Shown here piece by piece: positions 7,511 through 27,485 of a stretch of DNA of 64,000 nt (position 1 is the stretch's first letter; every line of letters begins with the position of its first letter). The stretch comes from Devosia lucknowensis (GTDB lineage: Bacteria; Pseudomonadota; Alphaproteobacteria; Rhizobiales; Devosiaceae): assembly GCF_900177655.1 (NCBI RefSeq), contig NZ_FXWK01000001.1, forward strand, positions 1,178,001 to 1,242,000, in the 5' to 3' direction. The notes beneath the pieces were generated by a model. The model was not told the DNA's origin. It did not search any database and worked only from the letters and a program-made list of their open reading frames with translations. A program made the translations under genes and the position numbers.

Positions 7511-10500
7511 ATGCGCATTGAACGCCGGTTTACGACTGCCAACGCGGACCGCTACGGCTCTATCGAGTTCCGCTCGGCAACCAGCGAGATCAAGAACCCC
7601 GACGGCTCGGTGGTTTTCAAGCTCGACGACATTGCCGTGCCCGCAACCTGGTCTCAGGTCGCCACCGACATCATCGCGCAGAAATACTTCCGCAAGGCCG
7701 GCGTCGCCAAGGTCCTCAAGAAGGTCGAGGAAAACGACGTTCCCTCCTGGCTGTGGCGCTCCGTGCCAGACGAAAAAGCCCTCGCCAAGCTTCCCGAAAA
7801 TGAGCGCTACGGCTCGGAAATGGATTCGCGCCAGGTCTTTGATCGCCTTGCGGGCACCTGGACCTACTGGGGCTGGAAGGGCGGTTATTTCGACAGCGAG
7901 GAAGACGCGCGCACCTTCTTTGACGAACTCGCCTTCATGCTCGCCAGCCAGCGGGTCGCTCCCAATTCCCCGCAGTGGTTCAACACCGGTCTGCATTGGG
8001 CCTATGGCATCGATGGCCCCGGCCAGGGCCATTTCTATGTCGACCCCTTCACCCACAAGCTCGTCCAGTCCAAGTCGGCTTACGAGCATCCGCAGCCGCA
8101 TGCCTGCTTCATCCAGTCGGTGGACGATGACCTCGTAAACGAAAACGGCATCATGGATCTCTGGGTCCGCGAAGCGCGCCTCTTCAAGTATGGCTCCGGC
8201 ACCGGCACCAACTTCTCCAAGCTGCGCGGCGAAGGCGAAAAGCTCTCCGGCGGCGGCAAGTCCTCGGGCCTGATGAGCTTTTTGAAGATCGGCGACCGCG
8301 CTGCCGGCGCCATCAAGTCGGGCGGCACCACCCGCCGCGCCGCCAAGATGGTCGTGATCGACATCGATCACCCCGATATCGAGGCCTACATCAACTGGAA
8401 GGTCAAGGAAGAGCAGAAGGTCGCCGCCCTCGTCACCGGCTCCAAGGTGGTCTCGAAACACCTCAAGGCCATCATGAAGGCCGCCGTCAATTGTGAAGGC
8501 AATGGCGACGACTGCTTCGACGTGGCCCTGAACCCCGCCCTCAAGCGCGAAGTCCGCGCCGCCAAGAAGGCCCTGGTTCCGGAAAACTACATCTTCCGCG
8601 TCATCCAGTTCGCTCGCCAGGGCTACACCGATCTTGAATTCCCCATCTACGACACCGATTGGGACAGCGAAGCCTATCTGACCGTTTCGGGCCAGAACTC
8701 CAACAATTCCGTCCGCGTCACCGATGACTTCCTGCGCTCAGTCGAATCCGATGGCGACTGGAACCTGACGGCCCGCAGCAACGGCAAGACCATCAAGACA
8801 CTCAAGGCCAACGACCTTTGGGAACAGATCGGTTACGCGGCCTGGGCATCGGCCGATCCCGGCATCCAGTACCACACCACCATCAACGAGTGGCACACCA
8901 GCCCCGAAGCCGGTCCGATCGTCGCGTCCAATCCGTGCTCGGAATACATGTTCCTCGATGACACGGCTTGCAATCTCTGCTCGGTCAACCTCCTGCCCTA
9001 TCGCAACGCTGACTCGAGCTTCGACACCGCTGCCTACGAACACACCGTCCGCCTCTGGACCATCGTGCTCGAAATCTCGGTGATGATGGCCCAGTTCCCC
9101 AGCCGCGCCATTGCGGAACGCTCGTTCGAATACCGCACGCTGGGCATCGGCTACGCCAATATCGGTGGCTTGCTGATGACCTCGGGCATTCCCTATGACT
9201 CCGCCGAAGGCCGCGCCATCGCCGGTGCCATCACCGCCATCATGACCGGCGTCAGCTACGCCACCTCGGCCGAAATGGCCAAGGAGCTCGGCCCGTTCAA
9301 GGATTACAAGCGCAACTGCAAGCACATGCTGCGCGTCATCCGCAACCACCGCAATGCCGCCTATGGCAATGCTGATGGCTATGAAGGCCTCTCCATCAAC
9401 CCGGTTCCGCTCGACCATGCCAACGTCAAGGACGCGGCCCTTTCCGAGCGTGCCCGGATTGCCTGGGACAATGCTTTGGCGCTGGGCGAAGCTCATGGCT
9501 ACCGTAACGCCCAGGTTTCCGTTATCGCGCCCACCGGCACGATCGGCCTCGTTATGGATTGCGACACGACCGGCATCGAGCCCGACTTCGCCCTCGTGAA
9601 GTTCAAGAAGCTCGCCGGCGGCGGCTACTTCAAGATCATCAACCGCGCCGTGCCCCCCGCCCTGCGCACCCTCGGCTATGCCGAAGACCAGATCGCCGAG
9701 ATCGAGGCCTATGCCGTTGGCCACGGCAACATGAACCAGGCGCCTGGCATCAACCCCTCGACGCTCCGCACCAAGGGTTTTACCGATGAAAAGATCGAGG
9801 CGCTCAACGCCGCGATGAAGTCGGCCTTCGACATCAAGTTCGTCTTCAACCAGTGGACGCTTGGCGCCGATTTCCTCAAGACCCTCGGCGTCACCGACGA
9901 ACAGCTGGGCGATTTCTCCTTCGATCTGCTGAGCCATCTCGGCTTCTCCAGGAAGGACATCGAGGCCGCCAACATCCACGTTTGTGGTGCCATGACGCTT
10001 GAAGGCGCGCCCTTCCTTAAGGACGAGCACCTGCCCGTCTTCGATTGTGCCACCCCCTGCGGCAAGATCGGCAAGCGCTACCTCTCGGTCGAGTCGCACA
10101 TCCTCATGATGGCTGCTGCCCAGCCCTTCATCTCGGGCGCGATTTCCAAGACCATCAACATGCCCAACGACGCCACCGTCGAGGACGCCAAGAACGCCTA
10201 CATGCTCTCCTGGCGCCTGGCGCTGAAGGCCAACGCGCTCTATCGCGATGGCTCCAAGCTCTCCCAGCCGCTCAATTCCTCCGTGCTGGCCGCTGCCGAC
10301 GACGAGGACGAGGACGATGCGGTGGAGGCCATCGCCGCCCTGCCCGCCGCCGCGCGCACCGAAGTCATCGTCGAAAAGATCGTCGAGAAGGTGTTCCGCG
10401 AACGCGAGAAGATGCCGGATCGCCGCAAGGGCTACACCCAGAAGGCCGTCGTCGGTGGCCACAAGGTCTATGTCCGCACCGGCGAATACGACGATGGTCG

Positions 10501-13331: not shown

Positions 13332-15875
13332 CTAGACGCCGTCGGCTCGGAGCTGCCGCGCTGGCCGCACCGACATGGCCGACCAGGTCGTCAGAACTCC
13401 GGTCGCGATCGTCGTCGCGACGGCCCCGATGATGACGACCGCGACCGTCATCATGTTTGGCACGAAGGGGATTTCCATCACGAAGGTCAGGATCGCCCAT
13501 GTCGCAGTCACACCCAGGCCGGCGCCCATGGCTGCCGCAAGCAGACCGAGCACCCCGTATTCGACCACGAAGGCCACGATCACATTGCGCCGAGTTGCCC
13601 CCAGCACTTTCATGACCACGGCATCCGCCTCGCGCTGTCGGCGCCCAACGGCCATGGCGCCCGCCAGCACCAGCACGCCGGACACCACCGCAAGGCTCCC
13701 CACCAGAGCCACGGCGTTGGCAAGGCTTGAAAGTATCTCCTCAACCCGCGCGATCGCATACCCGACTGGCAGAAAGCTCAGTGTCGGAAAGGCCTGGGAC
13801 AGCCGGCCCTCCACGCCCGGAGCGGCACCATCGACCACGTCGATGGCGCCCATCACGGTCTGCGGCGCGCTCTCGACCATGCCGGGCGAAAACAGCAGCC
13901 GGAAATTCACGCCGCCCTCGCGCCAGTCGATATCCCGAAAATTGGCAACCGTCACATCGATCGCCCGGCCTGCAACGGCAATGCGCATGCTATCGCCCAC
14001 GGAGAGCCCTAGCGGCGCGCGCAGCTCGGTGCTCAGAGATACCAGTGGAGGGCCGGAATAGTCGTCGGCCCACCACTCCCCGTCGACAACGCTCGAGCCC
14101 TCTGGCAAGGATCGCGCCCAGCTCAGCGCCGTATCGCCTTCGAACATGTCGGCGATGTCGTCGGGCACCGGTCCGAGCTCGGCGACGGCCACGCCCTTAA
14201 CGCTCTCGATCGTGCCACGCAGCATGGGGATGGTCTCGAGCGCCGCGATACCGGGATCGGCCGCTGCAAACGCCTCTACCAGTGGCACCTGCTCCTTGGG
14301 CATATCCAGCAGCACGAAGGCCGGCGCATCCTCGGCCACTGCGCCGTCGATCTGGCTGCGCAGGTTCTGGTCGAGCAATGTGATCATCAGGAGCAGCGCA
14401 AGACCGAGCCCGAGCGACAGCACCACCACGGGAGCGACCGATCCCGGCCGGTAGATGGACTTGAAGGCCTGTCGAAGCACCGTATTGGGCATCGGTGGAA
14501 CCAGCCGCAGCAGCGCCTGCAGCAGCCAGGCGGCGACCCGCAGCAGGCCGAACGCGACCCCCGCGCCTATCGTGTACCACAGGACCAGCCAGGGCGAGCC
14601 TGTGGTGTAGACGGCCAGACCGGCTATGCCGAGCAGCGCAGTAGCAAGTGGCAAGGACGTCCGCCAAGCCACGAGATCGCGCCAGTTGAGGGTATTCACA
14701 CCGCCGTCTGACGCGCGGAACAGGTTGGCGGGCTTGAGCTTCTGTGCAGCGCGAAGCGGTAACAGGGCGAAGGCGAAACCGATCAGCAGGCCAAACCCCG
14801 CCGCCGTGACGAGCGAACGCAGATCGAGGCTCGGCGCGAGTTCAATGCCCAGCATGCCCGACAGGACCGGCAAGGCGACAAGGCTTGTCCCTGCGCCAAG
14901 GACCAGCCCGAGAAGCACACCCGCAGCGGCCAGCACCATGACCTGCGTCAGAAAGTGCACGAGGACTCGAGCCCCCGTGGCGCCCAGGCTGCGCAGCGTG
15001 GCGATAGAGGTGCGCCTTTCGGTGATATAGGCGGAAATCGCGTTGGAGACGCCCACCCCGCCGACCAGCAGCGACGACAAGCCCACCAGCGTCAGGAACC
15101 GCGCGAAAAGATCGAAGAACCGCGCGAGATTCGCCGCCGCGTCCTCGGGCTGCCGCAGGTCCCATCCGGCGTCGGGATGAGCCGCGTTCAGTCCCTCGAT
15201 CGCCCGCGCCGCATTACCCTCCGCGAGCACGACCTTGTATCCGTATCGGCTGAGAACGCCCTGCTGCTGCAGCCCTGCCTCTGCAAGTGTGGTATCGATT
15301 ACGACGGCCGGAAGGCCGAGCTGAAACCCGAGTGCCGCCTGGTCTGGCAGCGCCTCGAGCACGCCGCGCACGGCAAAGTCGGCATCGCCGATCCGGATCG
15401 TATCACCCAGCGTCACCCCGAGCCTGTCGAGCACCCCCTGGTCCACCACCGTTCCGGGCAACCCGCTCTCGTCGGAGAGGAGGACACCCAGCGGTTCTCC
15501 CGATGCAGGCGAAACCGCGACGCTTCCGAGCAGCGGGTAATTGCTGCTCACCGCGCGCAGGCTCAGCAGCGTACTGGCGCCATTGGCGCTGGCCCGGGCG
15601 GTAATATCGACCACCCTTGCCGTCTCGCCAAGCGCCTCGACCGCCGCGCGTTGCTCGGGCGAGATGTCTGCTCCGCGCGAACGCACTTCCATGTCACCGC
15701 CGAGGATGACGCGCGCATCGCGCTGCACCGCCGACTGCAGTGCAGCCCCGACCGACGACACTGCCGCAATGGCACCGACGCCCAGGGCCAGACAAGCGAG
15801 AAGAATGACGAAGCGCCTGAAATCGCCCCGCAGGTCGATAATCCCGATCCGCATCCAGCCCAGAAGTCGGCTCAT
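13332..15875 (-). CDS. ABC transporter permease of the YbbP/FtsX type
   Basis: An 847-residue protein with the duplicated FtsX layout: an N-terminal helix (FVILLACLALGVGAIAAVSS), a large periplasmic domain, a block of three helices near residues 250-400 (GLSSLLVGGVGVSNAISAYI and following), further central helices, a second periplasmic domain and a final block with LVLAGAMAVGRRQREADA. Such permeases work with a LolD-like ATPase, here encoded immediately upstream with an ATGA overlap (15872-15875). They move or extract envelope lipids or release proteins; the substrate of the YbbAP group is not established. The TesA-like esterase is divergent, as in the E. coli tesA-ybbAP locus. Confidence 0.92.
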   Translation of the reverse strand: MSRLLGWMRIGIIDLRGDFRRFVILLACLALGVGAIAAVSSVGAALQSAVQRDARVILGGDMEVRSRGADISPEQRAAVEALGETARVVDITARASANGASTLLSLRAVSSNYPLLGSVAVSPASGEPLGVLLSDESGLPGTVVDQGVLDRLGVTLGDTIRIGDADFAVRGVLEALPDQAALGFQLGLPAVVIDTTLAEAGLQQQGVLSRYGYKVVLAEGNAARAIEGLNAAHPDAGWDLRQPEDAAANLARFFDLFARFLTLVGLSSLLVGGVGVSNAISAYITERRTSIATLRSLGATGARVLVHFLTQVMVLAAAGVLLGLVLGAGTSLVALPVLSGMLGIELAPSLDLRSLVTAAGFGLLIGFAFALLPLRAAQKLKPANLFRASDGGVNTLNWRDLVAWRTSLPLATALLGIAGLAVYTTGSPWLVLWYTIGAGVAFGLLRVAAWLLQALLRLVPPMPNTVLRQAFKSIYRPGSVAPVVVLSLGLGLALLLMITLLDQNLRSQIDGAVAEDAPAFVLLDMPKEQVPLVEAFAAADPGIAALETIPMLRGTIESVKGVAVAELGPVPDDIADMFEGDTALSWARSLPEGSSVVDGEWWADDYSGPPLVSLSTELRAPLGLSVGDSMRIAVAGRAIDVTVANFRDIDWREGGVNFRLLFSPGMVESAPQTVMGAIDVVDGAAPGVEGRLSQAFPTLSFLPVGYAIARVEEILSSLANAVALVGSLAVVSGVLVLAGAMAVGRRQREADAVVMKVLGATRRNVIVAFVVEYGVLGLLAAAMGAGLGVTATWAILTFVMEIPFVPNMMTVAVVIIGAVATTIATGVLTTWSAMSVRPARQLRADGV

Positions 15876-16576
15876 GCAAGCACCTGCTCCGTGACGCTGG
15901 TCAATCGCCCGTGGTTCATGGCGAGGACCCGGTCGGCACGACGGGCGAGAGCCGGATCATGGGTAATGAGGAAAACCGCCGTACCGTTGTCGCGGGCCAG
16001 TGCGAACATCATCTCGATCACCCGGGCGCCGGTATGTTGGTCGAGATTGCCCGTCGGCTCGTCGGCCAGCAGCAGTTTGGGCTTGTTGACGATGGCACGC
16101 GCCAACCCCACGCGCTGTTGCTCCCCGCCAGATAGAGCGCTCGGACGATGATCGAGCCGATCGCCGAGCCCCACGGCGACCAGCGCCTCGGTCGCGGCGG
16201 CCATGATCTCGGCATAGGATTGCCCTGTCTCTCCGATCTCGAGCGAGAGCGCCACGTTTTCGAGCGCCGTCATCGACGGGATCAGATGAAAATTCTGAAA
16301 CAGGATGCCCAGATGCTGACGCCGGAAGATTGCCAGCTCGTCTTCGCCAAGGCCTGTGATCGGCTTGCCGGCAACAATCACGCTGCCGTTTGTTGCCTGT
16401 TCGAGCCCACCGAGTACCATGAGCAGCGATGTCTTGCCGCTGCCCGACGGCCCCACCACCGCCACCACCTCGCCCGGCGCGACCGAGAAGTCGATGTCCT
16501 TGAGAATGTGGAGCGGCGTCTTGCCCGATTGCAGGTTCAGGTTGAGGGCGGCAGTCTCTACCACTGGGCTGCTCAT
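15872..16576 (-). CDS. ABC transporter ATPase of the YbbA/LolD type
   Basis: A 234-residue cytoplasmic ATPase with Walker A VGPSGSGKTSLL, Q-loop FQNFHL, signature LSGGEQQRVGLARA, Walker B KLLLADEPTGNLD and the H-loop ITHD. Both the LADEPTGNLD segment and the size are typical of the MacB/LolD/YbbA group that serve FtsX-type permeases. The ATG at 16576 has GGAAG upstream; a TTG at 16609 in the same frame is less likely. It overlaps the permease by four bases, and 64 bp separate it from the divergent esterase. Confidence 0.94.
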   Translation of the reverse strand: MSSPVVETAALNLNLQSGKTPLHILKDIDFSVAPGEVVAVVGPSGSGKTSLLMVLGGLEQATNGSVIVAGKPITGLGEDELAIFRRQHLGILFQNFHLIPSMTALENVALSLEIGETGQSYAEIMAAATEALVAVGLGDRLDHRPSALSGGEQQRVGLARAIVNKPKLLLADEPTGNLDQHTGARVIEMMFALARDNGTAVFLITHDPALARRADRVLAMNHGRLTSVTEQVLA

Positions 16577-16640
16577 GGGCGCACTTCCGTCAGAATGATC
16601 ACTCAGCAAGACCTAGGCGGTCGCGGAGGAAAGAACAGCC

Positions 16641-17270
16641 GTGCAGATAAAAAAACTTCGTGACGGACTTCTCGGCGCAGCGCTTTCGTTGACAGTCGCC
16701 ATCCTCCTGCCGGTTGCGACGACTGCCGACGAGCGTACCTTGATGCTCTATGGCGATAGCCTGATGGCTGGTCTTGGCCTTTCGGCCCAGGACAGTTTCG
16801 CAGGTCAGCTGCAGCAGGCCCTTGGCGACGACGTTACCATCGTCAACGCCAGCGTCTCGGGAGATACTGCATCCGATGGCTTGGCGCGTCTTGACTGGTC
16901 GCTTGCCGAGCGGCCGGACGCGGTCATTCTCGAACTGGGCGCCAACGACATGCTTCAGGGGCGATCCGTTGACACCATGCGACAAAGCCTGACGGCCATC
17001 CTCCAGCGCTTTGGGGACGAGAACATTCCCGTGCTGCTGGCCGGCATGCGCGCCAGCCCCGGCCTCGGCACCGACTATGTCAACGCCTACGAAGCTGTGT
17101 TCCCCGAACTGGCCGCCGAATTCGGCACGCGCTTCTACCCGTTCTTTCTGGACGGCGTCGCCACGGATCCATCGCTCAACCAGGCCGATGGCCTGCATCC
17201 TAACGCACAAGGAGTGGCCGTGATCGTCGAAGGCATCCTGCCGGAGGTCGAGGCGCTGCTAAACCGCTGA
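16641..17270 (+). CDS. tesA: TesA-like SGNH/GDSL esterase (periplasmic)
   Basis: A 209-residue lipase/arylesterase of the SGNH family. The N-terminus is a signal peptide (LLGAALSLTVAILLPVATTA), so it should be periplasmic. The four blocks are visible: Ser nucleophile in LMLYGDSLMAG, Gly in VSGDTASDG, Asn in ELGANDML, and the Asp/His pair in DGLHPNAQGV. This matches thioesterase I/lysophospholipase L1. The GTG start at 16641 follows GGAGGA by nine bases. The divergent pairing with the YbbA/YbbP-like genes matches E. coli and supports the name. Confidence 0.93.
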   Translation: MQIKKLRDGLLGAALSLTVAILLPVATTADERTLMLYGDSLMAGLGLSAQDSFAGQLQQALGDDVTIVNASVSGDTASDGLARLDWSLAERPDAVILELGANDMLQGRSVDTMRQSLTAILQRFGDENIPVLLAGMRASPGLGTDYVNAYEAVFPELAAEFGTRFYPFFLDGVATDPSLNQADGLHPNAQGVAVIVEGILPEVEALLNR

Positions 17271-17349
17271 CCTGACCCACCTCCCGCTCGTGGGCACGTT
17301 TCACCACGTACCGATGCGTGATAGAAGACAACCGTTTAGGGAGATCGGC

Positions 17350-18528
17350 TTGCCAGCATCAGCAGAGCGTCCGCTCGTTCTCGTCGGGGCGGGCCTGTCC
17401 AGCGCCCTGATTGCCATGAGGCTGTCCCATGGCGGCGCCGGTCCATCGATCGTGATCCTCGAGGGATCGACCGAGCCGTTTGGCGAACACACCTGGTCCT
17501 TCCACGATGCCGACGTCGAACCGGCCGACCGTGCCTGGCTCGACACCATGGTCGCACATCGCTGGCAGGGACAGTCCGTACGGTTTCAGAACCTGAACAG
17601 GCACCTCGACAGCGGTTACGCGTCGCTGACCTCTGCCTCGGTCGCTGCGGCCATCGCCAAACTGCCCAATGTTGATTTGCGTACCGGCGCCCGTGTCACC
17701 TCGGTTGCTCCAACCAGCGTCACCCTGGCCGATGGAACGGTTGTCGAGGCATCCTGCGTCATCGATTGCCGTGGCTACCAGCCGAGCCCCGCGCTGGTCT
17801 TGGGTTATCAAAAGTTCGTCGGCCTCGAAGTTGAACTCGAAGCCCCCCACGGTCTCGTCGATCCCGTCATCATGGATGCCTCGGTGGATCAGCGAGACGG
17901 CTATCGCTTCGTCTACCTGCTTCCCTTCAGTCCCACCCGGCTTCTCATCGAGGATACCCGCTACTCCGATGGCGAAGCTCTGGACCTGCAGGCATTGGCC
18001 GCCGACATTAATCGCTATGCCGAGGATCAGGGCTGGTCGATCCTTCGCATCGTGCGCGAGGAAAACGGCGTGCTGCCGATCGCCCTTGCGCATGACTTCG
18101 AGCGCTTCTGGGCGGAAAGGCCGGATGATATCCCTCAGGCGGGCATGCGCGCCGGACTTTTCCACCCGACGACTGGCTACAGCCTCCCCGAGGCGGTTCG
18201 CGTCGCCAGTCTGGTCGGCAGCAGTTGGCCTGTCGGCAGCGCGGCTTTGGCACCCAGGATCTGGGCCCATGCACGCACCCGCCATCGGCAACAGGCATTT
18301 TACCGCCTGCTCAACCGCATGCTGTTTCGCGCCGCGAAGCCGGAAAAACGGCATCTCGTTTTGCGGCGCTTCTATAAATTGCCAAAGGGACTGATCGAGA
18401 GGTTCTATTCCGGACGTACTGGTGTTGCGGACATCGTTCGTATCCTTGTCGGGAAACCACCCGTGCCCATTCATCGCGCCCTCGCCTGCCTGCGGGAAGC
18501 GCCAATGCTGAAAGCGAAAAAGCTTTGA
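17350..18528 (+). CDS. crtY: Lycopene beta-cyclase
   Basis: CrtY cyclises both ends of lycopene to give beta-carotene. The product has an N-terminal FAD/NAD-binding segment (LVLVGAGLSSALIAMRL), the family motif FGEHTWSFHDAD, and the internal VIDCRGYQPSPAL stretch. I favour the TTG at 17350 because AGGGAGA precedes it and the length (392 residues) then fits CrtY; in-frame alternatives at 17314 (ATG) and 17290 (GTG) lack ribosome sites. It is the first of three coupled genes crtY-crtI-crtB: its stop overlaps the TTG start of crtI. The N-terminal segment shows minor departures from the usual GGGLANGLIA pattern. Confidence 0.95.
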   Translation: MPASAERPLVLVGAGLSSALIAMRLSHGGAGPSIVILEGSTEPFGEHTWSFHDADVEPADRAWLDTMVAHRWQGQSVRFQNLNRHLDSGYASLTSASVAAAIAKLPNVDLRTGARVTSVAPTSVTLADGTVVEASCVIDCRGYQPSPALVLGYQKFVGLEVELEAPHGLVDPVIMDASVDQRDGYRFVYLLPFSPTRLLIEDTRYSDGEALDLQALAADINRYAEDQGWSILRIVREENGVLPIALAHDFERFWAERPDDIPQAGMRAGLFHPTTGYSLPEAVRVASLVGSSWPVGSAALAPRIWAHARTRHRQQAFYRLLNRMLFRAAKPEKRHLVLRRFYKLPKGLIERFYSGRTGVADIVRILVGKPPVPIHRALACLREAPMLKAKKL

Positions 18529-20018
18529 CCACCACCCAGAAGACTGCGGCTGTCATTGGCGCCGGTTTTGGCGGCCTGGCTCTGGCTATCAGGCTGCAGA
18601 GCGCCGGCATACAAACCACCCTGTTCGAAAAGCGCGACAAGCCGGGCGGACGCGCCTACGTCTACACCGATGATGGCTTTACCTTCGATGCTGGCCCCAC
18701 GGTCATCACCGACCCCGACTGTCTGGAACAGCTTTGGGCCCTGTCCGGCCGCAAGCTCTCCGATTACGTGACGCTCCTGCCGGTCACACCCTTCTACCAA
18801 CTCTGCTGGGAAGACGGCTACCGCTTCGATTACGCCAACGACCAAGCGGAAATCGACCGGCAAATTCGCGCCAAGTCGCCTGATGATGTCGACGGCTACC
18901 ACCGGTTCCTGCGCTATTCGGAAGACCTTTATCGCGAGGGCTACGAGAAGCTCGGGACCGTGCCGTTCCTCAATTTCTGGTCGATGATCAAGGCCGCACC
19001 GCAACTGGTTCGGCTCGAAAGTCACCGCAGCGTCTATTCGAAGGTCAGCCAGTTCATCAAGGACGACCAGTTGCGCCAGGCCTTCAGCTTCCACTCCCTG
19101 CTGGTGGGCGGCAATCCGTTCGAGACCTCATCGATCTATGGGCTGATCCACGCGCTGGAACGCAAGGGTGGCGTATGGTTTGCCAAGGGTGGCACCGGGG
19201 CCTTGATCGCAGGCATGGTCAAGCTGTTCGAAGATCTCGGCGGCACCGTGCACCTCAATGCCGAGATCGATCGCATCGAAGTCGAGCACGATCGCGCCGC
19301 CGGTCTTGTACTCAGGCAGGGAACGCGGCACGCCTTTGATCAGATCGCCTCCAATGCCGATGTTGTGCATACCTACAAGCACATGCTCCGCGGGACAGAT
19401 CGCGGGGCCAGCAATGCCAGGGCGCTCGAGAAGAAGCGCTTCTCCATGTCGCTCTTCGTCATCTACTTCGGCCTCAGGACCACACATCCAGAGCTCAAGC
19501 ACCACATGGTCCTGTTCGGGCCACGCTATCGCGAGTTGATTTCCGAGATCTTCCACACCGATGGGCTCGCGGACGATTTTTCGCTCTACCTCCACGCGCC
19601 CTCCGTCACCGACGACAGCCTCGCCCCGTCTGGATCGAGCGCCTACTATGTGCTCTCACCGGTCCCGCATCTGGGAACCGCCGACATCGATTGGGCCGCC
19701 GAAGGTCCGAAATATCGGGACCGCATCCTCAAATATCTCGATGATCACTACATCCCAGGCCTTCTGGACGACCTGGTGACCGTGCGCCATTTCACGCCCT
19801 TCGACTTCCGCGACCAGCTCAATGCCCATCTCGGATCGGCATTCTCGGTTGAACCGATCCTCACCCAGAGTGCCTGGTTCCGGCCGCACAATCGCGACGA
19901 CGATATCAGCAACCTCTACATCGTCGGCGCGGGGACACATCCCGGGGCAGGCATTCCTGGGGTTGTGGGATCGGCAAAGGCGACGGCAGGCCTGATGATC
20001 GAGGATTCAAAGCCATGA
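18525..20018 (+). CDS. crtI: Phytoene desaturase
   Basis: CrtI adds four double bonds to phytoene to form lycopene, using FAD at the membrane. The 497-residue product has the N-terminal dinucleotide fold AAVIGAGFGGLALAIRL with the downstream FEKRDKPGGRAY, the second motif GGTGALIAGMVKLFEDLGG, and the C-terminal signature IVGAGTHPGAGIPGVVGSAK. The start is a TTG whose bases overlap the crtY stop (18525-18528), and the stop overlaps the crtB start by ATGA, so the three enzymes are translationally coupled. Confidence 0.97.
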   Translation: MTTTQKTAAVIGAGFGGLALAIRLQSAGIQTTLFEKRDKPGGRAYVYTDDGFTFDAGPTVITDPDCLEQLWALSGRKLSDYVTLLPVTPFYQLCWEDGYRFDYANDQAEIDRQIRAKSPDDVDGYHRFLRYSEDLYREGYEKLGTVPFLNFWSMIKAAPQLVRLESHRSVYSKVSQFIKDDQLRQAFSFHSLLVGGNPFETSSIYGLIHALERKGGVWFAKGGTGALIAGMVKLFEDLGGTVHLNAEIDRIEVEHDRAAGLVLRQGTRHAFDQIASNADVVHTYKHMLRGTDRGASNARALEKKRFSMSLFVIYFGLRTTHPELKHHMVLFGPRYRELISEIFHTDGLADDFSLYLHAPSVTDDSLAPSGSSAYYVLSPVPHLGTADIDWAAEGPKYRDRILKYLDDHYIPGLLDDLVTVRHFTPFDFRDQLNAHLGSAFSVEPILTQSAWFRPHNRDDDISNLYIVGAGTHPGAGIPGVVGSAKATAGLMIEDSKP

Positions 20019-20938
20019 GCGACGCCGTGGTTGCGACCAGCGAAATTGCCATCGCTCAGGGCTCGCAGAGCTTTGCCGCCGCGGCGCGCCTCTTCGACCG
20101 GCAGACGCGCGACGATGCAGTGATGCTTTATGCCTGGTGCCGGCATTGTGACGACGTCATCGATGGGCAGACCCTGGGGCACGCCCAGCAGGCTGACTTT
20201 CGCACCGGACAGCAGGCACGCCTCGATGCACTACGCGAGAAGACCACCGCCGCCCTTGCCGGCGAGAGCACCGACGACCCGACCTTCGAAGCCCTGCGAC
20301 GGGTCGTCGAGCGTCACCAGATCCCTGCCCGCCACCCCCTTGAACTCCTGGCGGGCTTTGAAATGGACGTCGCCGACAGGCACTATGCCACCATCGATGA
20401 CACGCTGGACTATTGCTATCACGTGGCCGGCGTCGTCGGCGTCATGATGGCCATGATCATGGGCGCACGTGATCCGAGAGTGCTCGATCGCGCCAGCGAT
20501 CTCGGTCTCGCCTTTCAACTGACCAATATCGCCCGCGACGTTATCGATGACGCACGCGCCGGCCGCGTCTACCTGCCTGATGACATCCTCGCCCGTCACG
20601 GCATCGACCGGATCGATCCCGAGGATCGGACGCAGCGCCCTGCCCTTCACGCCGCCGCACTCGATCTGCTCGATCTCGCGGAACGCTATTATTCCAGCGC
20701 CTATGTCGGCATGGCCGCCTTGCCGCCCCGCTCCGCCTGGGCCATTGCAGCGGCGCGCCGCGTCTACCGCGCCATCGGCAGCAAGCTTCGCGCCGGGGGC
20801 CCGCAAGCATGGGATGAGCGTGTCTCCACCACAAAGGCTGAAAAGATCGCCCTGCTGGCCCTCGGACTGGGCGATGTGGGCGTCACGCGTTTCGGCCCCA
20901 CGGATCAACCGCGCGAAGGCCTCTGGAACCGACCCTGA
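20015..20938 (+). CDS. crtB: Phytoene synthase
   Basis: CrtB condenses two GGPP molecules to phytoene. The 307-residue protein carries both Asp-rich metal sites: CRHCDDVIDG in the N-terminal third and the LAFQLTNIARDVIDDA segment in the middle, followed by GRVYLPDD, typical of bacterial CrtB. It ends the crtYIB unit. Its TGA stop is directly next to the stop of the convergent crtZ, forming the palindrome TGATCA with no spacer between the two operons. Confidence 0.97.
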   Translation: MSDAVVATSEIAIAQGSQSFAAAARLFDRQTRDDAVMLYAWCRHCDDVIDGQTLGHAQQADFRTGQQARLDALREKTTAALAGESTDDPTFEALRRVVERHQIPARHPLELLAGFEMDVADRHYATIDDTLDYCYHVAGVVGVMMAMIMGARDPRVLDRASDLGLAFQLTNIARDVIDDARAGRVYLPDDILARHGIDRIDPEDRTQRPALHAAALDLLDLAERYYSSAYVGMAALPPRSAWAIAAARRVYRAIGSKLRAGGPQAWDERVSTTKAEKIALLALGLGDVGVTRFGPTDQPREGLWNRP

Positions 20939-21475
20939 TCAGCGGGCGGTCGGGCGTCCCTGATCTTGGTCATCGAGGGCGTTCCGGTCATAGCCGTTCT
21001 TGTTCTGCTGCAGCTTCTTGACCAGTTTATCGACCGGTTCGGCATAGACGAAGCCGAAACTCACGCACCCATCCCGGCCTTCAACGGCATGATGCAGTCG
21101 ATGTGCCTGATACACTCGCTTCAGGTAACCCCGGCGCGGAATGTATTTGAACGGCCAGCGCTGGTGCACCAGCCCATCGTGGAAGAAGAAATAGAGGATG
21201 CCGTAGATGGAAATCCCTACGGCGATCCACCACACCGGCCAAAACCAGACCGATCCGATCCAGAAAAGGAACACGGAGAAAGCGGCGAAGACCACCGCGT
21301 AGAGGTCGTTCTGTTCCAGCGCGTCATCATGGGGCTCATGGTGCGATTTGTGCCAGCCCCAACCCCAGCCATGCATGATGTGCTCGTGCGACCAGGCCGC
21401 GAACCACTCCATGAAGACCACGGTTCCGACGACCAGCAGGATCGGCACCAGATAATGCAGCACGTCTTGGATCAT
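20939..21475 (-). CDS. crtZ: Beta-carotene hydroxylase
   Basis: CrtZ is a membrane di-iron enzyme that hydroxylates the beta rings at C3 and C3'. The 178-residue product shows the His clusters of the family: WSHEHIMHG, WHKSHHEPHDD, FHDGLVHQRWPF and YQAHRLHHAV. Four hydrophobic segments are present. The ATG at 21475 overlaps the crtW stop by ATGA; a longer in-frame start at 21544 lies inside crtW and has no family support. It is the last gene of the crtE-ABC-ABC-crtW-crtZ transcript. Confidence 0.96.
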   Translation of the reverse strand: MIQDVLHYLVPILLVVGTVVFMEWFAAWSHEHIMHGWGWGWHKSHHEPHDDALEQNDLYAVVFAAFSVFLFWIGSVWFWPVWWIAVGISIYGILYFFFHDGLVHQRWPFKYIPRRGYLKRVYQAHRLHHAVEGRDGCVSFGFVYAEPVDKLVKKLQQNKNGYDRNALDDQDQGRPTAR

Positions 21476-22242
21476 AGCGCCTCGCTTGCTTGCGCATCCA
21501 GCACCGACCGGCGGTGCGCCGGCAGCTTCCACCACGGCACCCACGGAGCGTCATGGTGCTCATGATGATAGCCGAAGTGGAAGCAGGTCAGCAAACTCAC
21601 CAGTGGCGAGAAATCGTTGCTGCGGGCACGGTGCTCGTCGCGAAAGGGTTCGTCATCGATGCGGTGCGGGCGGTAGGTCCCGAAATAGAAGAGCTGCAGC
21701 GACGACAGGATCGCCGGCAGCGCCCAGAACACCAGCATGGTTGGAAAGCGCTCGCGCAGGATTACCAGGTAGATCAGCACCGCAATGGTCAACATTCCGA
21801 ACTCGCGCCAGCCGAAATAGTGCCTGAAAAATTTGATGTACCAGGGCCAGAAACGCGACGCGTGTTCTGGATCGAAATCGGGATCATCAGGCGTACCCGC
21901 ATTGCGGTGGTGCGCGTGGTGGTTCTGGTAGAGTTTCTCGTACGAGAAGCCGGCGTAGACGAATACACAGAAACGGCCGATGGCCCGGTTCAACCACGGA
22001 TACTGCGGGGCGAGCGAGCCATGCATGGTGTCATGAGCGACGATGAAGAGCCCGACGCTGAGCCAGCATTGCACGGCGATGACCAGAGGGGCCGCTACCC
22101 AGGTCCAGCCTTGCGTCCAGTCGATCAGGAAAATCGACGAGACGTGGACCGTCAGCCATGCCGCGATGATGGCGCACGAAAGACCCAGCCCGATCAGTGT
22201 GTCGTTTCGGCTGACAGACGCCACGCGGGTCGATCCTGCCAT
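21472..22242 (-). CDS. crtW: Beta-carotene ketolase
   Basis: CrtW adds keto groups at C4 and C4' of beta rings; with CrtZ it leads to astaxanthin. The 256-residue membrane protein has the three His motifs: FIVAHDTMHGSLAP, QNHHAHHRNAGTPDDPDF and HFGYHHEHHDAPWVPWWKLP. I chose the ATG at 22242, with AAGGG nine bases upstream; an ATG at 22251 is too close to that site. It lies 13 bp after the ABC-2 permease gene and overlaps crtZ by ATGA. Confidence 0.96.
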   Translation of the reverse strand: MAGSTRVASVSRNDTLIGLGLSCAIIAAWLTVHVSSIFLIDWTQGWTWVAAPLVIAVQCWLSVGLFIVAHDTMHGSLAPQYPWLNRAIGRFCVFVYAGFSYEKLYQNHHAHHRNAGTPDDPDFDPEHASRFWPWYIKFFRHYFGWREFGMLTIAVLIYLVILRERFPTMLVFWALPAILSSLQLFYFGTYRPHRIDDEPFRDEHRARSNDFSPLVSLLTCFHFGYHHEHHDAPWVPWWKLPAHRRSVLDAQASEAL

Positions 22243-22255
22243 GTCACACATCCCT

Positions 22256-23461
22256 TCAGAGGCGCAGTCGCAGCCTCGAAACCGCCAATGCTGCCAGGGT
22301 GCCGACCATGCCCAGAGCCAGCAGCCAGCTCAGTTCGGGCAACAATTCGGCAAGCCCTTCGCCGCGCCATAATACGCCATGATAGGCCTCGATCGTCCAG
22401 GCATTGGGGGTAAACCACCCGATTTCCTGCAGCCATGGCGGCATCATGAAGCGCGGCACCATTGACCCGCCCACTGCAGAACATAAGAGCACCACGAATG
22501 TGGAGATAGTTTGCGCCTGCTGCTTGGTCGTACACAATGCCGCGACCGCCAGCCCCAGTCCCGCCGCAGCCGCCGCCGCGACCAAGGTGGTCAAGAGCCA
22601 GATGCCGAGATGGCTGATGACTTCGACATCGTAGACCAGCGCGGCCACAAGGAAGATCAGTGACACCTGCACGATGCCCTGGACGCTGAGGAACAGGAAT
22701 TTGCCGATCACGACCACATCGGTTCCTGCCGGCCCGACCGCGATGCGGTCGATGATCCCCGAATGCCGCTCCTCGATCAGCGTCGCGGCGCTTTGCATGG
22801 CTGAAAACAGCAGAAAAAGGATCGCGACGGCGCCGGCGTAGTAGGTGACTGTTGCTCCCGACCCGTCCTGCGGCCCTACCGTCCGGGACTCGACGAGCCC
22901 GGCCTGGTTTTCCGCATCGCTGCTGCCGTTCTCCGCCAATTGCGCAATGGCGGCGTCGAGCCTGGCTGACTGTTCCGGCGTAAACCCTCCGACCAATGTC
23001 TCAATGGTCGGCGCACTGCGCGCGAGGGCCAGGTCTGGCAGGTCGATGCCGATGACGCGCTGAACCTGGCCGGCAAGAATGGCGCCGGCCATCACCTTGC
23101 CCGGGTCGACATAGACGACGGCCGGCGTGCTGGTGGTTTGTTCGAGAGCACCCTGTAGCATCAGCCCCACATCGGCGCGCCCGCTCTCGACTTCATCCAC
23201 CACCTGGTCCGCGGTCGCATAGGTCTCCGGCAACACGCGCAGCGAATCGTCGGCACGCAGCGCCGCCACCAGCCGTTCGCTCAGGCTTGACGGCTCGCCG
23301 ACACCCAGCGCCACCTGCAGCCGCAACTCATCGCCGCTCGTCCCCGCAAAAATCGCGGCGAAGATCACGAAGATTGTCGGCGGCAACAGGAACGCCATCA
23401 CCAGCGCACCGCGGTCACGAATAAGGCTCAGCGCCATCACGCGCAGCATGGCGACGATCAT
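22256..23461 (-). CDS. ABC-2 type permease within the carotenoid operon
   Basis: A 401-residue permease of the ABC-2 exporter class: one N-terminal helix (GALVMAFLLPPTIFVIFAA), an extracytoplasmic domain of about 170 residues, then five or six helices (VTYYAGAVAILFLLFSAMQS onward) with the LIEERHSGIIDRI cytoplasmic turn typical of ABC2_membrane_3 proteins. Its ATG overlaps the ATPase stop (23458-23461) and crtW follows 13 bp later, so it is part of the crtE-crtW-crtZ transcript. Substrate unknown; position suggests a carotenoid, a terpenoid intermediate or a membrane-protection role. I know of no standard carotenoid cluster with this pair, but I could not search. Confidence 0.92.
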   Translation of the reverse strand: MIVAMLRVMALSLIRDRGALVMAFLLPPTIFVIFAAIFAGTSGDELRLQVALGVGEPSSLSERLVAALRADDSLRVLPETYATADQVVDEVESGRADVGLMLQGALEQTTSTPAVVYVDPGKVMAGAILAGQVQRVIGIDLPDLALARSAPTIETLVGGFTPEQSARLDAAIAQLAENGSSDAENQAGLVESRTVGPQDGSGATVTYYAGAVAILFLLFSAMQSAATLIEERHSGIIDRIAVGPAGTDVVVIGKFLFLSVQGIVQVSLIFLVAALVYDVEVISHLGIWLLTTLVAAAAAAGLGLAVAALCTTKQQAQTISTFVVLLCSAVGGSMVPRFMMPPWLQEIGWFTPNAWTIEAYHGVLWRGEGLAELLPELSWLLALGMVGTLAALAVSRLRLRL

Positions 23462-24405
23462 CGCGCCCCCTCCATGCGTGTCGCGCGCGACAGGTGCACG
23501 AACAGCCGGTCGAGACCAGGCCCGCGCAGCCGGACCTCGCGGGCCTCGATGCCGGCCTGCTCCAGCGATGCCGACAGTTCCGCAACTGTGCGCTCGTTGG
23601 CCTGCCCCAGCATCACCCAGCCCAGCCCGCCGTTGAAGGCCGAGAACCCCGCCCTTTCGAGCACGACCACCCGATCGGGGGAAGGCAATTGCCGCAATTC
23701 GAGAATGACTTCCTTTTGCGATCCGAAAGCCTCTGCGATCAGCTCTCGCGGCCTCCCCTGCGGCGCGACCACACCAGCGCGCAGGAAGCCGACGCTGTTG
23801 CAGATGGTCTCGGCCTGGTCGAGATCGTGCGTCGCCAACAGCACCGCCATCCCGGTTTGGCTCAGCTGCTGGATAACCTCATGCAGCCCGTTCCGCGCAT
23901 CGACATCCACCCCCACGGTCGGCTCGTCGAGGATCAGCAGGGCCGGACGATGCAGGATCGCGGCAGCGATGTTGACCCTCCGTTTCCACCCCCCGGAAAG
24001 AATGTCGATCCTGTCGTTGAGCCGGCTCGTGAGATTGGCCGCCGCGCACGCCCATTCGATGGCCGCCTGGGTCGACGCCGCCCCCATGCCCGACAACCGG
24101 CCGAAAACCTCGAGGTTTTCCCGCACCGTCAAATGCGTGTAGAGCGCGATTTCCTGCGGCACGAGCCCGATCTGCCGCAGGGCGGTCCGCCCCGGAGCGT
24201 GGCCGGCCACGATGACCCTGCCCGACACCGGCCGAACCCGTCCGCAGATGGTGCGAATCAAGGTCGTCTTACCCGCCCCATTGGGACCGAGCAGGCCATA
24301 GATCTCGCCCCGGGCGACGCTGAGCCCAAGCCCGCGCAACACGTCGCGGTCCCCGTAGCGGACGACCAGTCCTTCGATGTTCAGCGCGGCGGTCGTCTCG
24401 CTCAC
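23458..24405 (-). CDS. ABC-2 type exporter ATPase within the carotenoid operon
   Basis: A 315-residue ATPase with Walker A GLLGPNGAGKTTLIRT, Q-loop LVPQEIALY, signature ILSGGWKRRVNIAAAIL, Walker B ALLILDEPTVGVD and switch His ATHD. The C-terminal extension of about 85 residues resembles DrrA/CcmA-type drug-exporter ATPases. The start is the GTG at 24405, which overlaps the crtE stop as GTGA; the longer open frame upstream lies inside crtE. Coupled on both sides (crtE before it, permease after it), so it should be made together with the pigment enzymes. Confidence 0.93.
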   Translation of the reverse strand: MSETTAALNIEGLVVRYGDRDVLRGLGLSVARGEIYGLLGPNGAGKTTLIRTICGRVRPVSGRVIVAGHAPGRTALRQIGLVPQEIALYTHLTVRENLEVFGRLSGMGAASTQAAIEWACAAANLTSRLNDRIDILSGGWKRRVNIAAAILHRPALLILDEPTVGVDVDARNGLHEVIQQLSQTGMAVLLATHDLDQAETICNSVGFLRAGVVAPQGRPRELIAEAFGSQKEVILELRQLPSPDRVVVLERAGFSAFNGGLGWVMLGQANERTVAELSASLEQAGIEAREVRLRGPGLDRLFVHLSRATRMEGAR

Positions 24406-25334
24406 AAAGGCATGACCTTCTGCCCCTTGTCGAGCAGGCGCATCATCAGCGCCCTGATCGGAGCGCCGTTGATGCCGCTCGCAAGCAGCGCCTGCTCGGC
24501 ATGGGCGATGTGCTGCTGGCATGTCATCCGGGCGTGATCGGCGCCGAACAGCGAAACCAGTGTCGCCTTGTCGCCGTCCTTGCCCACGTCCTTGCCGGCT
24601 TCGGCAACGGTTTCGGTCCTGTCGATCAGGTCGTCGGCTGTCTGGAACGCCAGCCCGAAATGTCGGGCGAAATGCCCGACGGCTTCAAGCCGCTCCCCCT
24701 CGAGCCCCCGAAGGATCGCGCCTATCTTCGCCGCAGCCACGAACAGGACGCCGGTCTTGAGCCAGTTGAGCTGCTCGACCTGCTCGGCATTGCCGAGCTC
24801 CGCGCGGTTGTTGATGTCGATCTCCTGCCCGGCCACGAGCCCGTTCCACCCGACGGCCTGCGAAAGAACGGTAGCCATTCGGTTTCGCGTCGCCGTCGGA
24901 ACGCCGTCGAGCTCGGCGATGATGCCGAACGCCCGTGTCAGAAGCGCTATGGCTCCAAGAATCGCCGTGGGTTGTCCAAAAGCCACATGCGTGGTCGGCC
25001 GTTGCCGGCGTATGGCTGCATCGTCCATGCACGGCAGATCGTCGATAATCAGCGAGGCGGTATGCACCATCTCCAGTGCGCAGCCGGCGTCGAGCACCGC
25101 GCCGATCGCGGCGCCATCCGGCTCGGCGATCAGGTACATCAGCGTGGGCCGAACCCTTTTGCTTTGCCCCATCAGCGCGTGGCGTAGCGCCGCCTGCAGG
25201 TTGGCCGGCACAATGGGATCGAAGTCGATCTGCCGCTCCAGACGGTCTTCTATCGCTGCACGGATCTCGGCGATGTCGATCGATCCGCCACTCGAGAGCG
25301 CGCCGGCTTCGGCAAAAGAGCCAATTGAGGTCAT
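24402..25334 (-). CDS. crtE: Geranylgeranyl diphosphate synthase
   Basis: CrtE makes GGPP from IPP and DMAPP/FPP, the entry point to carotenoids. The 310-residue product has the first Asp-rich motif LIIDDLPCMDDA, the second as FQTADDLIDRTET, and the KRVRPTLMYL segment typical of polyprenyl synthases. The ATG at 25334 is preceded by GGGAGA at good spacing. It is the first gene of the minus-strand operon and is divergent from fni across 148 bp, which must contain both promoters. An FPP-type synthase (IspA) has a similar pattern; the operon context makes CrtE the likelier call. Confidence 0.9.
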   Translation of the reverse strand: MTSIGSFAEAGALSSGGSIDIAEIRAAIEDRLERQIDFDPIVPANLQAALRHALMGQSKRVRPTLMYLIAEPDGAAIGAVLDAGCALEMVHTASLIIDDLPCMDDAAIRRQRPTTHVAFGQPTAILGAIALLTRAFGIIAELDGVPTATRNRMATVLSQAVGWNGLVAGQEIDINNRAELGNAEQVEQLNWLKTGVLFVAAAKIGAILRGLEGERLEAVGHFARHFGLAFQTADDLIDRTETVAEAGKDVGKDGDKATLVSLFGADHARMTCQQHIAHAEQALLASGINGAPIRALMMRLLDKGQKVMPL

Positions 25335-25482
25335 CGATGTGTCTCCCGTGGCAGACCGCTCGATCGGCAGTGAACCAGAATCCGAGCGCAAGCGTAAGCA
25401 CTGAAGTGACCGTTTGATTTTTTCGGTCCGATGGTAAGGTACCAAGTCGAGATCGGGGCCAGTCCCCGCCGGGGGGAAGTGT

Positions 25483-26493
25483 TTGCTGACCGATCGCAAG
25501 AATGAACATCTGGATATCGTTCTGGACGGCCGGGGCGTATCACGGACGACAACCGGCTTTGACGACATCGTTTTTGAACACTACGCCCTCCCCGAGCTCG
25601 ATCTCGACGCGATCGACCTTAATACGCAATTCCTGGGCAAGCGGATCAACGCGCCGCTCCTGGTGAGCTCGATGACCGGCGGTCCAGCGCGCGCCAGCGC
25701 CATCAACGCCCATCTGGCGGAGGCCTGCCAGCATCTGGGTATCGCGCTGGCTGTCGGCTCGCAGCGTGTTGCCATTGAGAGCGGCGACGTCGGCGGGCTG
25801 GGGGCTGAGCTGCGCCGCCACGCGCCCGACATCCCCATCCTCGCCAACTTCGGCGCCGCCCAGCTCAATCTCGGCTTCGGCGTTGACGAGGCCCGCAGGG
25901 CAATCGAGATGATCGGGGCCGACGCGCTGATCATTCATCTCAATCCGCTGCAGGAAGCAGTCCAGCCGGAAGGCGACCGCAACTGGCGGGGCCTTTTCGC
26001 CCATATCGAAACGCTGGCGGCACGGCTGGACGAACCCCTTGTCATCAAGGAAGTCGGTGCCGGCATATCCGGTCGACTGGCCCGGCGCCTCGCGGATGCA
26101 GGCGTTTCCGTAATTGATGTTGCCGGAGCCGGCGGCACCAGCTGGGCCGCGGTTGAGTCCGAGCGTTGCAAAGACCCTCGTCAGGCAGCGATCGGCCGGG
26201 CCTTCGCCGATTGGGGCATTCCCACCGCCACAGCCATCGCGGACGTAAGGGCCGCTTGCCCCGATACGACCATCGTCGGCTCGGGCGGCATTCGCAATGG
26301 CCTCGATGCAGCCAAGGCCATTCGCCTCGGCGCCGACGTCGTTGGCCAGGCTGCAGGTGTCTTGCAGGCCGCTACAATATCGGCTCAAGCCGTCATCGAC
26401 CATGTGTCGGTCACCACGGCGCAACTGCGCATTGCCTGCTTCTGCACGGGCTCGGCAAACCTCAAAGCCCTCCGGACCGCGGCGCTTCTCTAG
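25483..26493 (+). CDS. fni: Isopentenyl-diphosphate delta-isomerase, type II
   Basis: Type II IDI interconverts IPP and DMAPP with FMN and NADPH. The 336-residue TIM-barrel protein has [10 protein letters not shown] at the N-terminus (usually RKxxH), the phosphate/flavin loop [26 protein letters not shown], and the flavin-binding segments KEVGAGIS and [15 protein letters not shown]. The start is the TTG at 25483 after a strong GGGGGGAAG site. It faces away from crtE and would supply C5 units to the pathway. It is the only idi-type gene in the window. Confidence 0.95.
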
Positions 26494-26630
26494 GCACAGC
26501 CGCAGCATTCCAGTCTGGATTTGGCGCGCTTAAGCCTTGATTGCGCGCGGCAATCCGGTGCAAGGCTGGTGCTGTGGGGAACCTGTCCCCGCTCGGATGG
26601 CCAGGTGGCCCGACTTCAGGAGCCGATCCC

Positions 26631-27485
26631 ATGTTCATGGGCATACCCTACGCGGAACTCGCCATATTGGCCGCTGGCCTGCTCCTGGCGGGTGCCGCCA
26701 CCGGACTGCTTGCTGGCCTCTTCGGGGTCGGCGGCGGCGCCGTCATCGTTCCGGTGCTGTACGAACTGTTCACGGCGCTCGATGTCCCCGACGACATCCG
26801 CATGCCACTCTGCGTCGGCACATCCCTCGCCATCATCATCCCGACGTCGATCCAGTCGTTCAATGCGCATCGGAAGCGGGGCGCGGTGGACATGTCCATC
26901 ATTCGCGTCTGGGCAATCCCTGCGATCCTCGGCGTCATCGTCGGCAGCGTTATCGCACGCTACGCGTCGGCTGAACTATTCAAGTGGGTGTTTGTAGCCG
27001 TTGCCAGCATTTCCGCATTCCGCCTGTTGTTCGGCAAGGACAGCTGGCGCTTCGCTGACGAGATCCCGGGTAAGTGGATCATGCGCACCTATGGCGTGGT
27101 CATCGGCGTGCTCTCGGCCTTGATGGGCATCGGCGGCGGTCAGCTCTCGAGCCTGTTCATGACCTTTTATGGCCGGCCCATCCATCAGGCGGTCGCCACC
27201 TCGTCGGGTCTGGGCATGCTGATCTCCATCCCCGGCGCCCTGGGTTACATCTATGCCGGCTGGCCGCGTGCCGCCGAGTTCCCGCAGGTCGCAGCGATCC
27301 AGTTCCCGCTTGCGCTGGGCTATGTATCGCTGGTCGGCCTCATCCTCTTCATCCCGACCAGCATGCTCTTTGCCCCACTTGGCGTGCGCGTCGCCCATGC
27401 CCTCCCCAAGCGTCGGCTGGAAATGGCCTTCGGCCTTTTCCTGCTGCTTGTCGCCGGCCGCTTCCTGTTCGACCTGCTGACTTAG
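26631..27485 (+). CDS. TauE/SafE-family membrane transporter
   Basis: A 284-residue membrane protein with about eight hydrophobic segments and the two family repeats: GLLAGLFGVGGGAVIVPVL in the first half and SALMGIGGGQLSSLFMTFYG in the second. The family exports sulfite, sulfoacetate or related organic anions. The ATG at 26631 follows CAGGAG at eight to ten bases. It lies alone between fni and a convergent J-domain gene (28 bp apart), so neighbours do not name the substrate. Confidence 0.9.
   Translation: MFMGIPYAELAILAAGLLLAGAATGLLAGLFGVGGGAVIVPVLYELFTALDVPDDIRMPLCVGTSLAIIIPTSIQSFNAHRKRGAVDMSIIRVWAIPAILGVIVGSVIARYASAELFKWVFVAVASISAFRLLFGKDSWRFADEIPGKWIMRTYGVVIGVLSALMGIGGGQLSSLFMTFYGRPIHQAVATSSGLGMLISIPGALGYIYAGWPRAAEFPQVAAIQFPLALGYVSLVGLILFIPTSMLFAPLGVRVAHALPKRRLEMAFGLFLLLVAGRFLFDLLT

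Follow-up and report, generated by a model that had tools for sequence, protein, structure and literature searches.

In Devosia lucknowensis, adjoining genes for the ATPase and the permease of an ABC-2 exporter lie inside a carotenoid operon, and relatives of this pair accompany carotenoid genes of two different chemistries, C40 and C30. The pair is probably a dedicated, accessory carotenoid translocase that would move the finished carotenoid outward, as judged from gene order, co-occurrence and phylogeny. The window, i.e. the whole stretch of 64,000 nucleotides analysed here, contains two convergent carotenoid arms, crtY-crtI-crtB running rightward (17290-20938) and crtE-ATPase-permease-crtW-crtZ running leftward (25334 to 20939). 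Sequence and Pfam matches bear out the original prediction that a complete ATPase/permease pair is built into the leftward arm, and the overlaps it gave are exact when read from the sequence: GTGA between crtE and the ATPase gene, ATGA between the ATPase and permease genes, 13 nt between the permease gene and crtW, and ATGA between crtW and crtZ.

Carotenoid and exporter features of the window, with strand and supporting matches
Feature	Position	Strand	Support
crtE, polyprenyl (GGPP) synthase, first in leftward operon	24402..25334	-	PF00348 142 bits
ABC-2 exporter ATPase, 315 aa, GTG start	23458..24405	-	PF00005 (ABC_tran) 109 bits
ABC-2 permease, 401 aa	22256..23461	-	PF12698 (ABC2_membrane_3) 119 bits, residues 20-392
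Permease extracytoplasmic domain, TM1-TM2, ~residues 43-200	22862..23335	-	Secondary structure of the predicted model; putative topology
crtW, beta-carotene ketolase	21472..22242	-	NF045690 CrtW 231 bits (below cut-off of 350); PF00487
crtZ, beta-carotene hydroxylase (fatty-acid hydroxylase family)	20939..21475	-	PF04116 40.7 bits
crtB, phytoene synthase, convergent arm	20015..20938	+	PF00494 242 bits; NF042419 382 bits (below cut-off)
crtI, phytoene desaturase	18525..20018	+	TIGR02734 707 bits, above cut-off
crtY, lycopene beta-cyclase	17290..18528	+	TIGR01789 437 bits, above cut-off
Type 2 isopentenyl-diphosphate isomerase, divergent from crtE	25483..26493	+	TIGR02151 382 bits, above cut-off

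Some assignments in the leftward arm are less firm than others. The crtE product matches both the NF045685 CrtE and the NF045485 FPP synthase models, each below cut-off, and the crtZ product, with no match in the NCBIfam search, is named from its family and position. For crtW, a second in-frame ATG occurs at 22251, and a start there lies 4 nt past the permease stop. No sigma-70-like promoter was found within 20700-25700. Terminator-like sites number 4 there, compared with an average of 3.4 in shuffled sequence, and two lie on the operon strand, within crtW and the permease gene. A single transcript from crtE to crtZ is plausible on this layout. The stop codons of crtB and crtZ abut tail to tail at 20938/20939 with zero spacer, which forces the transcripts of the two arms to overlap, and crtB/crtZ ends that all but touch are also seen in several Devosia loci. 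Beside crtY, a second ABC export-type group (13332-17270) comprises an FtsX-like permease (847 aa), an ATPase (245 aa) and a divergent SGNH-type esterase, putative names that follow the YbbAP/TesA group. The idea of a rhodopsin antenna found no PF01036 match in the window's own genome, and the control genomes gave no match either, so the negative carries no weight.

The link between the pair and carotenoid genes extends well beyond the window. The permease was scanned against named genomes by a method that detects relatives through short peptide patterns in common with the query, so distant relatives may be missed. This locus scan gave 54 loci: 28 with C40 crt genes, 18 from Methylobacterium and 8 from Microvirga. 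By tblastn, with the window's crt genes as queries and Methylobacterium queries added later, a carotenoid gene lies at most 1.5 kb from the permease gene in 46/54 loci, the remaining 8 being those of Microvirga; one of these, L065, spans 3.5 kb of DNA with 52 residues of the permease and was assigned manually to the Microvirga loci that lack crt genes. The carotenoid role set out in the original prediction is strongly supported, as most close homologues in this survey lie with carotenoid genes, the opposite of the outcome that would speak against it. In addition, the 4-nt overlap between the ATPase and permease genes is found in 57 of 62 complete pairs, the window included (start codons were picked by script, a few loci may represent the same genome twice, and the incomplete locus L061 was omitted). 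Judged from sequence, the gene arrangement is more than chance, because this overlap recurs so widely and the linkage to crt genes holds across genera.

Whole-genome counts lead to the same association. Among 136 genomes of the window's family, 19 have the permease and 22 have crtY, with all 19 inside the 22; 114 have neither and 3 have crtY only (Fisher p 2e-20, uncorrected for shared ancestry). The permease and crtY genes lie within 5 kb on one contig in 18 of the 19, according to a hand tally from coordinates, and in the remaining genome (G1101) the pair is on a contig with the order idi-crtE-ATPase-permease-crtW (L130). Two of the three crtY-bearing genomes without the permease end at contig edges and the third has a divergent crtY. 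In one genome (L129) a divergent CrtY (224 bits) is encoded next to an ABC ATPase gene; there, at 8076-10324, the lycopene-cyclase-like gene faces the ATPase gene, a HlyD-type gene adjoins, and no ABC-2 permease was found among the five neighbouring genes scanned. In a sample of 297 genomes of the order, crtY exceeds the cut-off in 23, the pair being present in 6 and absent from 17 of them (permease at E<=1e-25), and in some crtY-bearing genomes (L081, L091) the genes are ordered as in pair-bearing clusters except that the pair is missing. Since 17 of these 23 genomes are without the pair, it is dispensable for pigment synthesis. The other 5 of the 11 permease-bearing genomes in this sample are 4 of the C30 type and 1 incomplete bin with crtE, crtZ and crtI. 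At wider range, the permease profile at E<=1e-30 matches 4/385 genomes of a class sample and 5/349 of a phylum sample, i.e. 7 distinct genomes (4-5 candidates per genome scored), and in 7/7 carotenoid genes adjoin the permease gene. Carotenoid genes are present in all permease-bearing genomes of the window's family (19/19), of a Methylobacterium-type genus (57/57) and of Microvirga (8/8). The presence of the pair is therefore a predictor of carotenoid genes, but the converse does not hold. The view that known carotenoid clusters hold enzymes only is right for many of them, though not as a general rule.

On the C30 side, the pair occurs together with a gene of the DUF2141 family (PF09912). In all 18 Methylobacterium loci the genes for a CrtN-type desaturase, DUF2141, the ATPase and the permease stand in a row, and in 16 of them the DNA retrieved goes on to genes for a CrtP-type protein, an acyltransferase and a glycosyltransferase. 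In the Methylobacterium-type genus around G117 (genus and family labels of some genomes were taken from the nearest named loci), CrtP is present in 59/59 genomes and the permease in 57/59. The permease and CrtP genes lie at most 3 kb apart on one contig in 45/57 by hand tally from coordinates; of the other 12, 11 have crtN-DUF2141-ATPase-permease and 1 is cut at a contig end. In the two genomes without the permease (L125, L126), crtN directly adjoins crtP, and DUF2141, ATPase and permease gave no match at the locus, the permease having been searched genome-wide and the other two at the locus only. In Microvirga, DUF2141 lies beside the pair and the DNA retrieved around it shows no crt gene (8/8 loci), while CrtP and a CrtN-like gene are found elsewhere in the genome (8/8). 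On a Microvirga ossetica plasmid, DUF2141-ATPase-permease shares one stretch with C30 genes, namely those for a squalene/phytoene synthase, a glycosyltransferase, an acyltransferase and two crtI-type proteins.

In Methylobacterium and Microvirga, DUF2141 genes adjoining the pair include L052:8303-9019, L043:8403-9110 and L134:7599-8012. Among seven aligned sequences, FQDxNGNGxLD-like and GLPLEPYG motifs are conserved and two cysteines are invariant; the predicted model (pLDDT 68.8) has no PDB match at E<=0.001 and weak CBM20/Ig-like matches. By tblastn the gene was not detected in the 28 C40 loci, and a search that did match a Caulobacter control found none in the window's genome. DUF2141 is ruled out as a generally required partner, because it is missing from a genome that has the pair.

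What the two kinds of cluster have in common bears on the cargo. What C40 and C30 clusters share is the making of a long, polar-ended conjugated chain, which is why the cargo would be the pigment or a compound connected with it; GGPP, glycosylation and a ketolase are none of them common to both kinds of pair-bearing cluster. The pigment would be made in the cytoplasmic leaflet by CrtI/CrtY/CrtZ/CrtW or by CrtN/CrtP. Two copies each of permease and ATPase would assemble, as the ABC-2 fold suggests, and ATP would drive the finished, polar-ended carotenoid from the cytoplasmic leaflet to the periplasmic side, where the periplasmic domain of ~158 residues, together with DUF2141 where present, would receive it. 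The cargo here is probably of the astaxanthin or zeaxanthin type, and in Methylobacterium-type bacteria it would be an acyl-glucosyl C30 diacid. Substrate, direction, destination, two-copy assembly and the role of DUF2141 are thus all putative. The pigment could possibly be carried on to the outer membrane. A full trans-envelope system, in which this ABC-2 family and, in Methylobacteriaceae, DUF2141 flip C40 xanthophylls and C30 glycosyl carotenoids and deliver them to the outer membrane, is a tentative extension that we would sooner doubt than accept. The original prediction also considered a glycosylated product or an apocarotenoid as cargo, and this is not indicated here, with no glycosyltransferase and no carotenoid cleavage enzyme among the ten window proteins scanned (17290-27485). 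A glycosyltransferase is present in the C40 cluster of Paracoccus albicereus (a few gaps of other C40 clusters were scanned).

Structural prediction places the permease among lipid-type exporters. Its AlphaFold2 model (pLDDT 82.5, pTM 0.76) has ~6 TM segments on a reading of the helices, and its TM domain matches the type V exporter fold (ABCH/ABCG/ABCA), with ABCG, ABCH, NosY and ABCA structures among the matches, including ABCA4 with N-retinylidene-PE. The sole Foldseek match at E<=0.001 is the insect (Tribolium) ABCH-9C, solved with ceramide. The predicted extracytoplasmic insert after TM1 is present in the model but is slightly smaller than the ~170 residues first proposed, at ~158; the only match spanning it, 8yzp (residues 50-398), superposes poorly (rmsd 14.8). 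The fold by itself names no substrate, and its class includes transporters of many lipids. The pair might then move a non-carotenoid lipid (phospholipid, hopanoid or similar) that has to be readjusted once carotenoids accumulate in the inner membrane. General membrane balancing of this kind would explain the presence of the pair with both C40 and C30 pigments, and in M. ossetica a squalene/phytoene synthase gene lies near the pair. A general exporter would, however, be expected in non-pigmented relatives as well, yet none of the 19 permease-bearing genomes of the window's family lacks crtY and 114/136 have neither gene, so we regard this explanation as unlikely.

Motifs and family models confirm the exporter class and set the pair apart from its named members. 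The ATPase exceeds the PF00005 cut-off and has the full set of catalytic motifs: Walker A, the LSGG signature, the Walker B DEP and the H-loop are invariant in an alignment of 20 sequences (G43/G45/K46, S137-G139, D160-P162 and H193). The permease exceeds the cut-offs of PF12698 and PF01061 with about six TM helices, and its residues D97, G131 and P142, located in the extracytoplasmic domain, are invariant in the alignment. All 9 NCBIfam models matching the permease score under cut-off, as do the 25 listed of the 191 matching the ATPase. Identity with the NodIJ nodulation-factor exporter was rejected (TIGR01288, 169 of 424 bits; TIGR01291, 19 of 207 bits), as was identity with the DrrAB daunorubicin exporter, the DrrA-like TIGR01188 giving 205 bits for a cut-off of 312 and TIGR01247 giving 53 for 223. 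DrrA, a daunorubicin resistance model, is nonetheless the top named ATPase model among the matches listed, as would suit an efflux pump against an exogenous drug or biocide that merely rides in the operon. Such a passenger is improbable given the linkage in differently arranged clusters and two chemistries, and given a tree conflict, described below, that fits a separate entry into Paracoccus.

Gene order on the C40 side is varied. Hosts include Devosia, Nitratireductor, Aureimonas, Aquamicrobium, Rhizobium wenxiniae, P. albicereus, Halomonas korlensis, Aquisalimonas and one Ectothiorhodospiraceae bin. The position between crtE and crtW, on which the original prediction focused, holds for the window and for Devosia (crtE-ATPase-permease-crtW/Z) but is one arrangement among several. 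R. wenxiniae has ATPase-permease-crtW-crtZ and carries crtE at the opposite end of the cluster, a Neorhizobium plasmid has ATPase-permease-crtW-crtZ, and P. albicereus has ATPase-permease-idi-crtW-crtZ-glycosyltransferase-crtY-crtI-crtB. A correlation with crtW was rejected, since the pair occurs in crtZ-bearing clusters with no crtW detected in the cluster DNA searched (e.g. L018, L022, L036) and is absent from the 8 f17 clusters, which have crtW. Extra genes lie between crtZ and other crt genes in several loci (L030:12552-13451, L031:13229-14164, L024:11754-12548, L032:13661-14878), their types being a short-chain dehydrogenase, an Antibiotic_NAT-family protein and a UDP-glycosyltransferase.

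These arrangements bear on whether the pair acts with crtE, exporting GGPP or a similar isoprenoid intermediate on build-up. The overlap with crtE in the window and the position downstream of crtE in most C40 loci would suit such relief, which had been offered as one of several roles at the outset. It becomes less likely, and in our estimate very improbable, since in four loci (L027, L029, L032, L035) the pair does not adjoin crtE and lies beside or near crtW/crtZ, and since C30 clusters, which start from squalene according to the available text of PMC10448405, have the pair adjoining crtN.

The trees point to a history of the pair that, in Paracoccus, apparently differs from that of the enzymes. 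In a permease tree of 50 sequences (34 C40, 12 C30-type and 4 Microvirga rows), the C40-linked rows fall on one side of the starred branch and the C30 and Microvirga rows on the other. The Devosia-type clade takes in the P. albicereus permease (its exclusion has an AU p of 0.006), and the CrtI of that species lies outside the clade (AU p 6e-5, or 0.018 when the Rhizobium pair is taken alone). All these p values err on the favourable side, because the groups were named after the tree had been seen and L032 has a long CrtI branch. The pair was apparently added to the Paracoccus cluster from outside, separately from the enzymes. Pair-bearing C40 clusters hold two distant CrtI groups too. Permeases and CrtI of Nitratireductor, Aureimonas and Aquamicrobium (L021, L022, L028) nest inside those of Devosia, which suggests transfer of whole crt clusters. 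The dN/dS ratios of the permease (~0.09 and 0.11) fall among those of the crt enzymes (~0.04-0.17), and that of the ATPase (~0.21, one comparison) lies above their maximum of 0.17, all with dS near saturation. Least probable of all is that a mobile crt island simply carried the linkage along, with no functional meaning: whole clusters do appear to travel, as the nesting in Devosia indicates, and against this stand the apparent separate recruitment in Paracoccus, the two pathway types, the joint absence of the three-gene module and the low dN/dS.

To our knowledge, the placement of carotenoids in the two Gram-negative membranes is poorly known. A carotenoid translocase of the kind favoured here would give this process named candidate genes, from a pump family whose association with pigment genes spans both chemistries. 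Natural comparisons with and without the pair are offered by the f10 and f30 clusters and by the two Methylobacterium-type genomes without the permease. The association provides a lead on DUF2141, which a Sphingomonadales survey ties to crtG without function in its available text (PMC5989583). Transporter-mediated carotenoid secretion is also of interest in biotechnology, as noted in the accessible part of PMC10742120.

Transporter genes near carotenoid genes have been mentioned before, in few words. A literature search with most subscription journals outside its reach found no survey of this ATPase/permease family and no function for it. The genus Fulvimarina presumably belongs to the same order as the window. 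In Fulvimarina pelagi, one sentence in the available text of PMC4962014 mentions two transporters, of the ABC and the MFS type, as neighbours of crtZ and crtY; the ABC transporter resembles the window pair in its carotenoid gene neighbours, a likeness by description, as family and function are not given in that text. The same text mentions, also in one sentence, a putative carotenoid transporter in Sphingomonas astaxanthinifaciens. In Mycobacterium kansasii, MmpL1 is proposed as a possible carotenoid transporter, with no pigment phenotype in a transposon screen, in the part of PMC9861118 available; like the window pair it is encoded within a carotenoid locus, but it belongs to the MmpL family and not to the ABC transporters. 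DUF2141 beside crtG is in print for Sphingomonadales, without a function in the accessible text (PMC5989583; PMC9241875).

For Methylobacterium extorquens AM1, the available text of PMC10448405 reports that cells are colourless once the gene for either CrtP (META1p3665) or CrtN (META1p3670) is deleted, and that a glycosyltransferase and an acyltransferase complete the pigment. Four locus numbers lie between these two genes; DUF2141-ATPase-permease fills the crtN-crtP gap in the surveyed Methylobacterium loci, and AM1 is likened to them by locus numbers alone. The words 'ABC' and 'transporter' have zero occurrences in the main text of that paper on the AM1 C30 genes. Among ABC exporters at large, Tribolium ABCH-9C and the human ABCA and ABCG proteins (type V) consist of one fused chain, whereas the window pair is encoded by two genes, and identity is ~20%. 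Exporters of the DrrAB and NodIJ type (PF00005 + PF01061/PF12698) have separate, adjoining ATPase and permease genes as in the window, and the window pair differs from them by its extracytoplasmic domain of ~158 residues and its carotenoid gene context. An ABC transporter beside crtZ was already in print, in the one sentence on Fulvimarina, which gives neither a family nor a survey of homologues.
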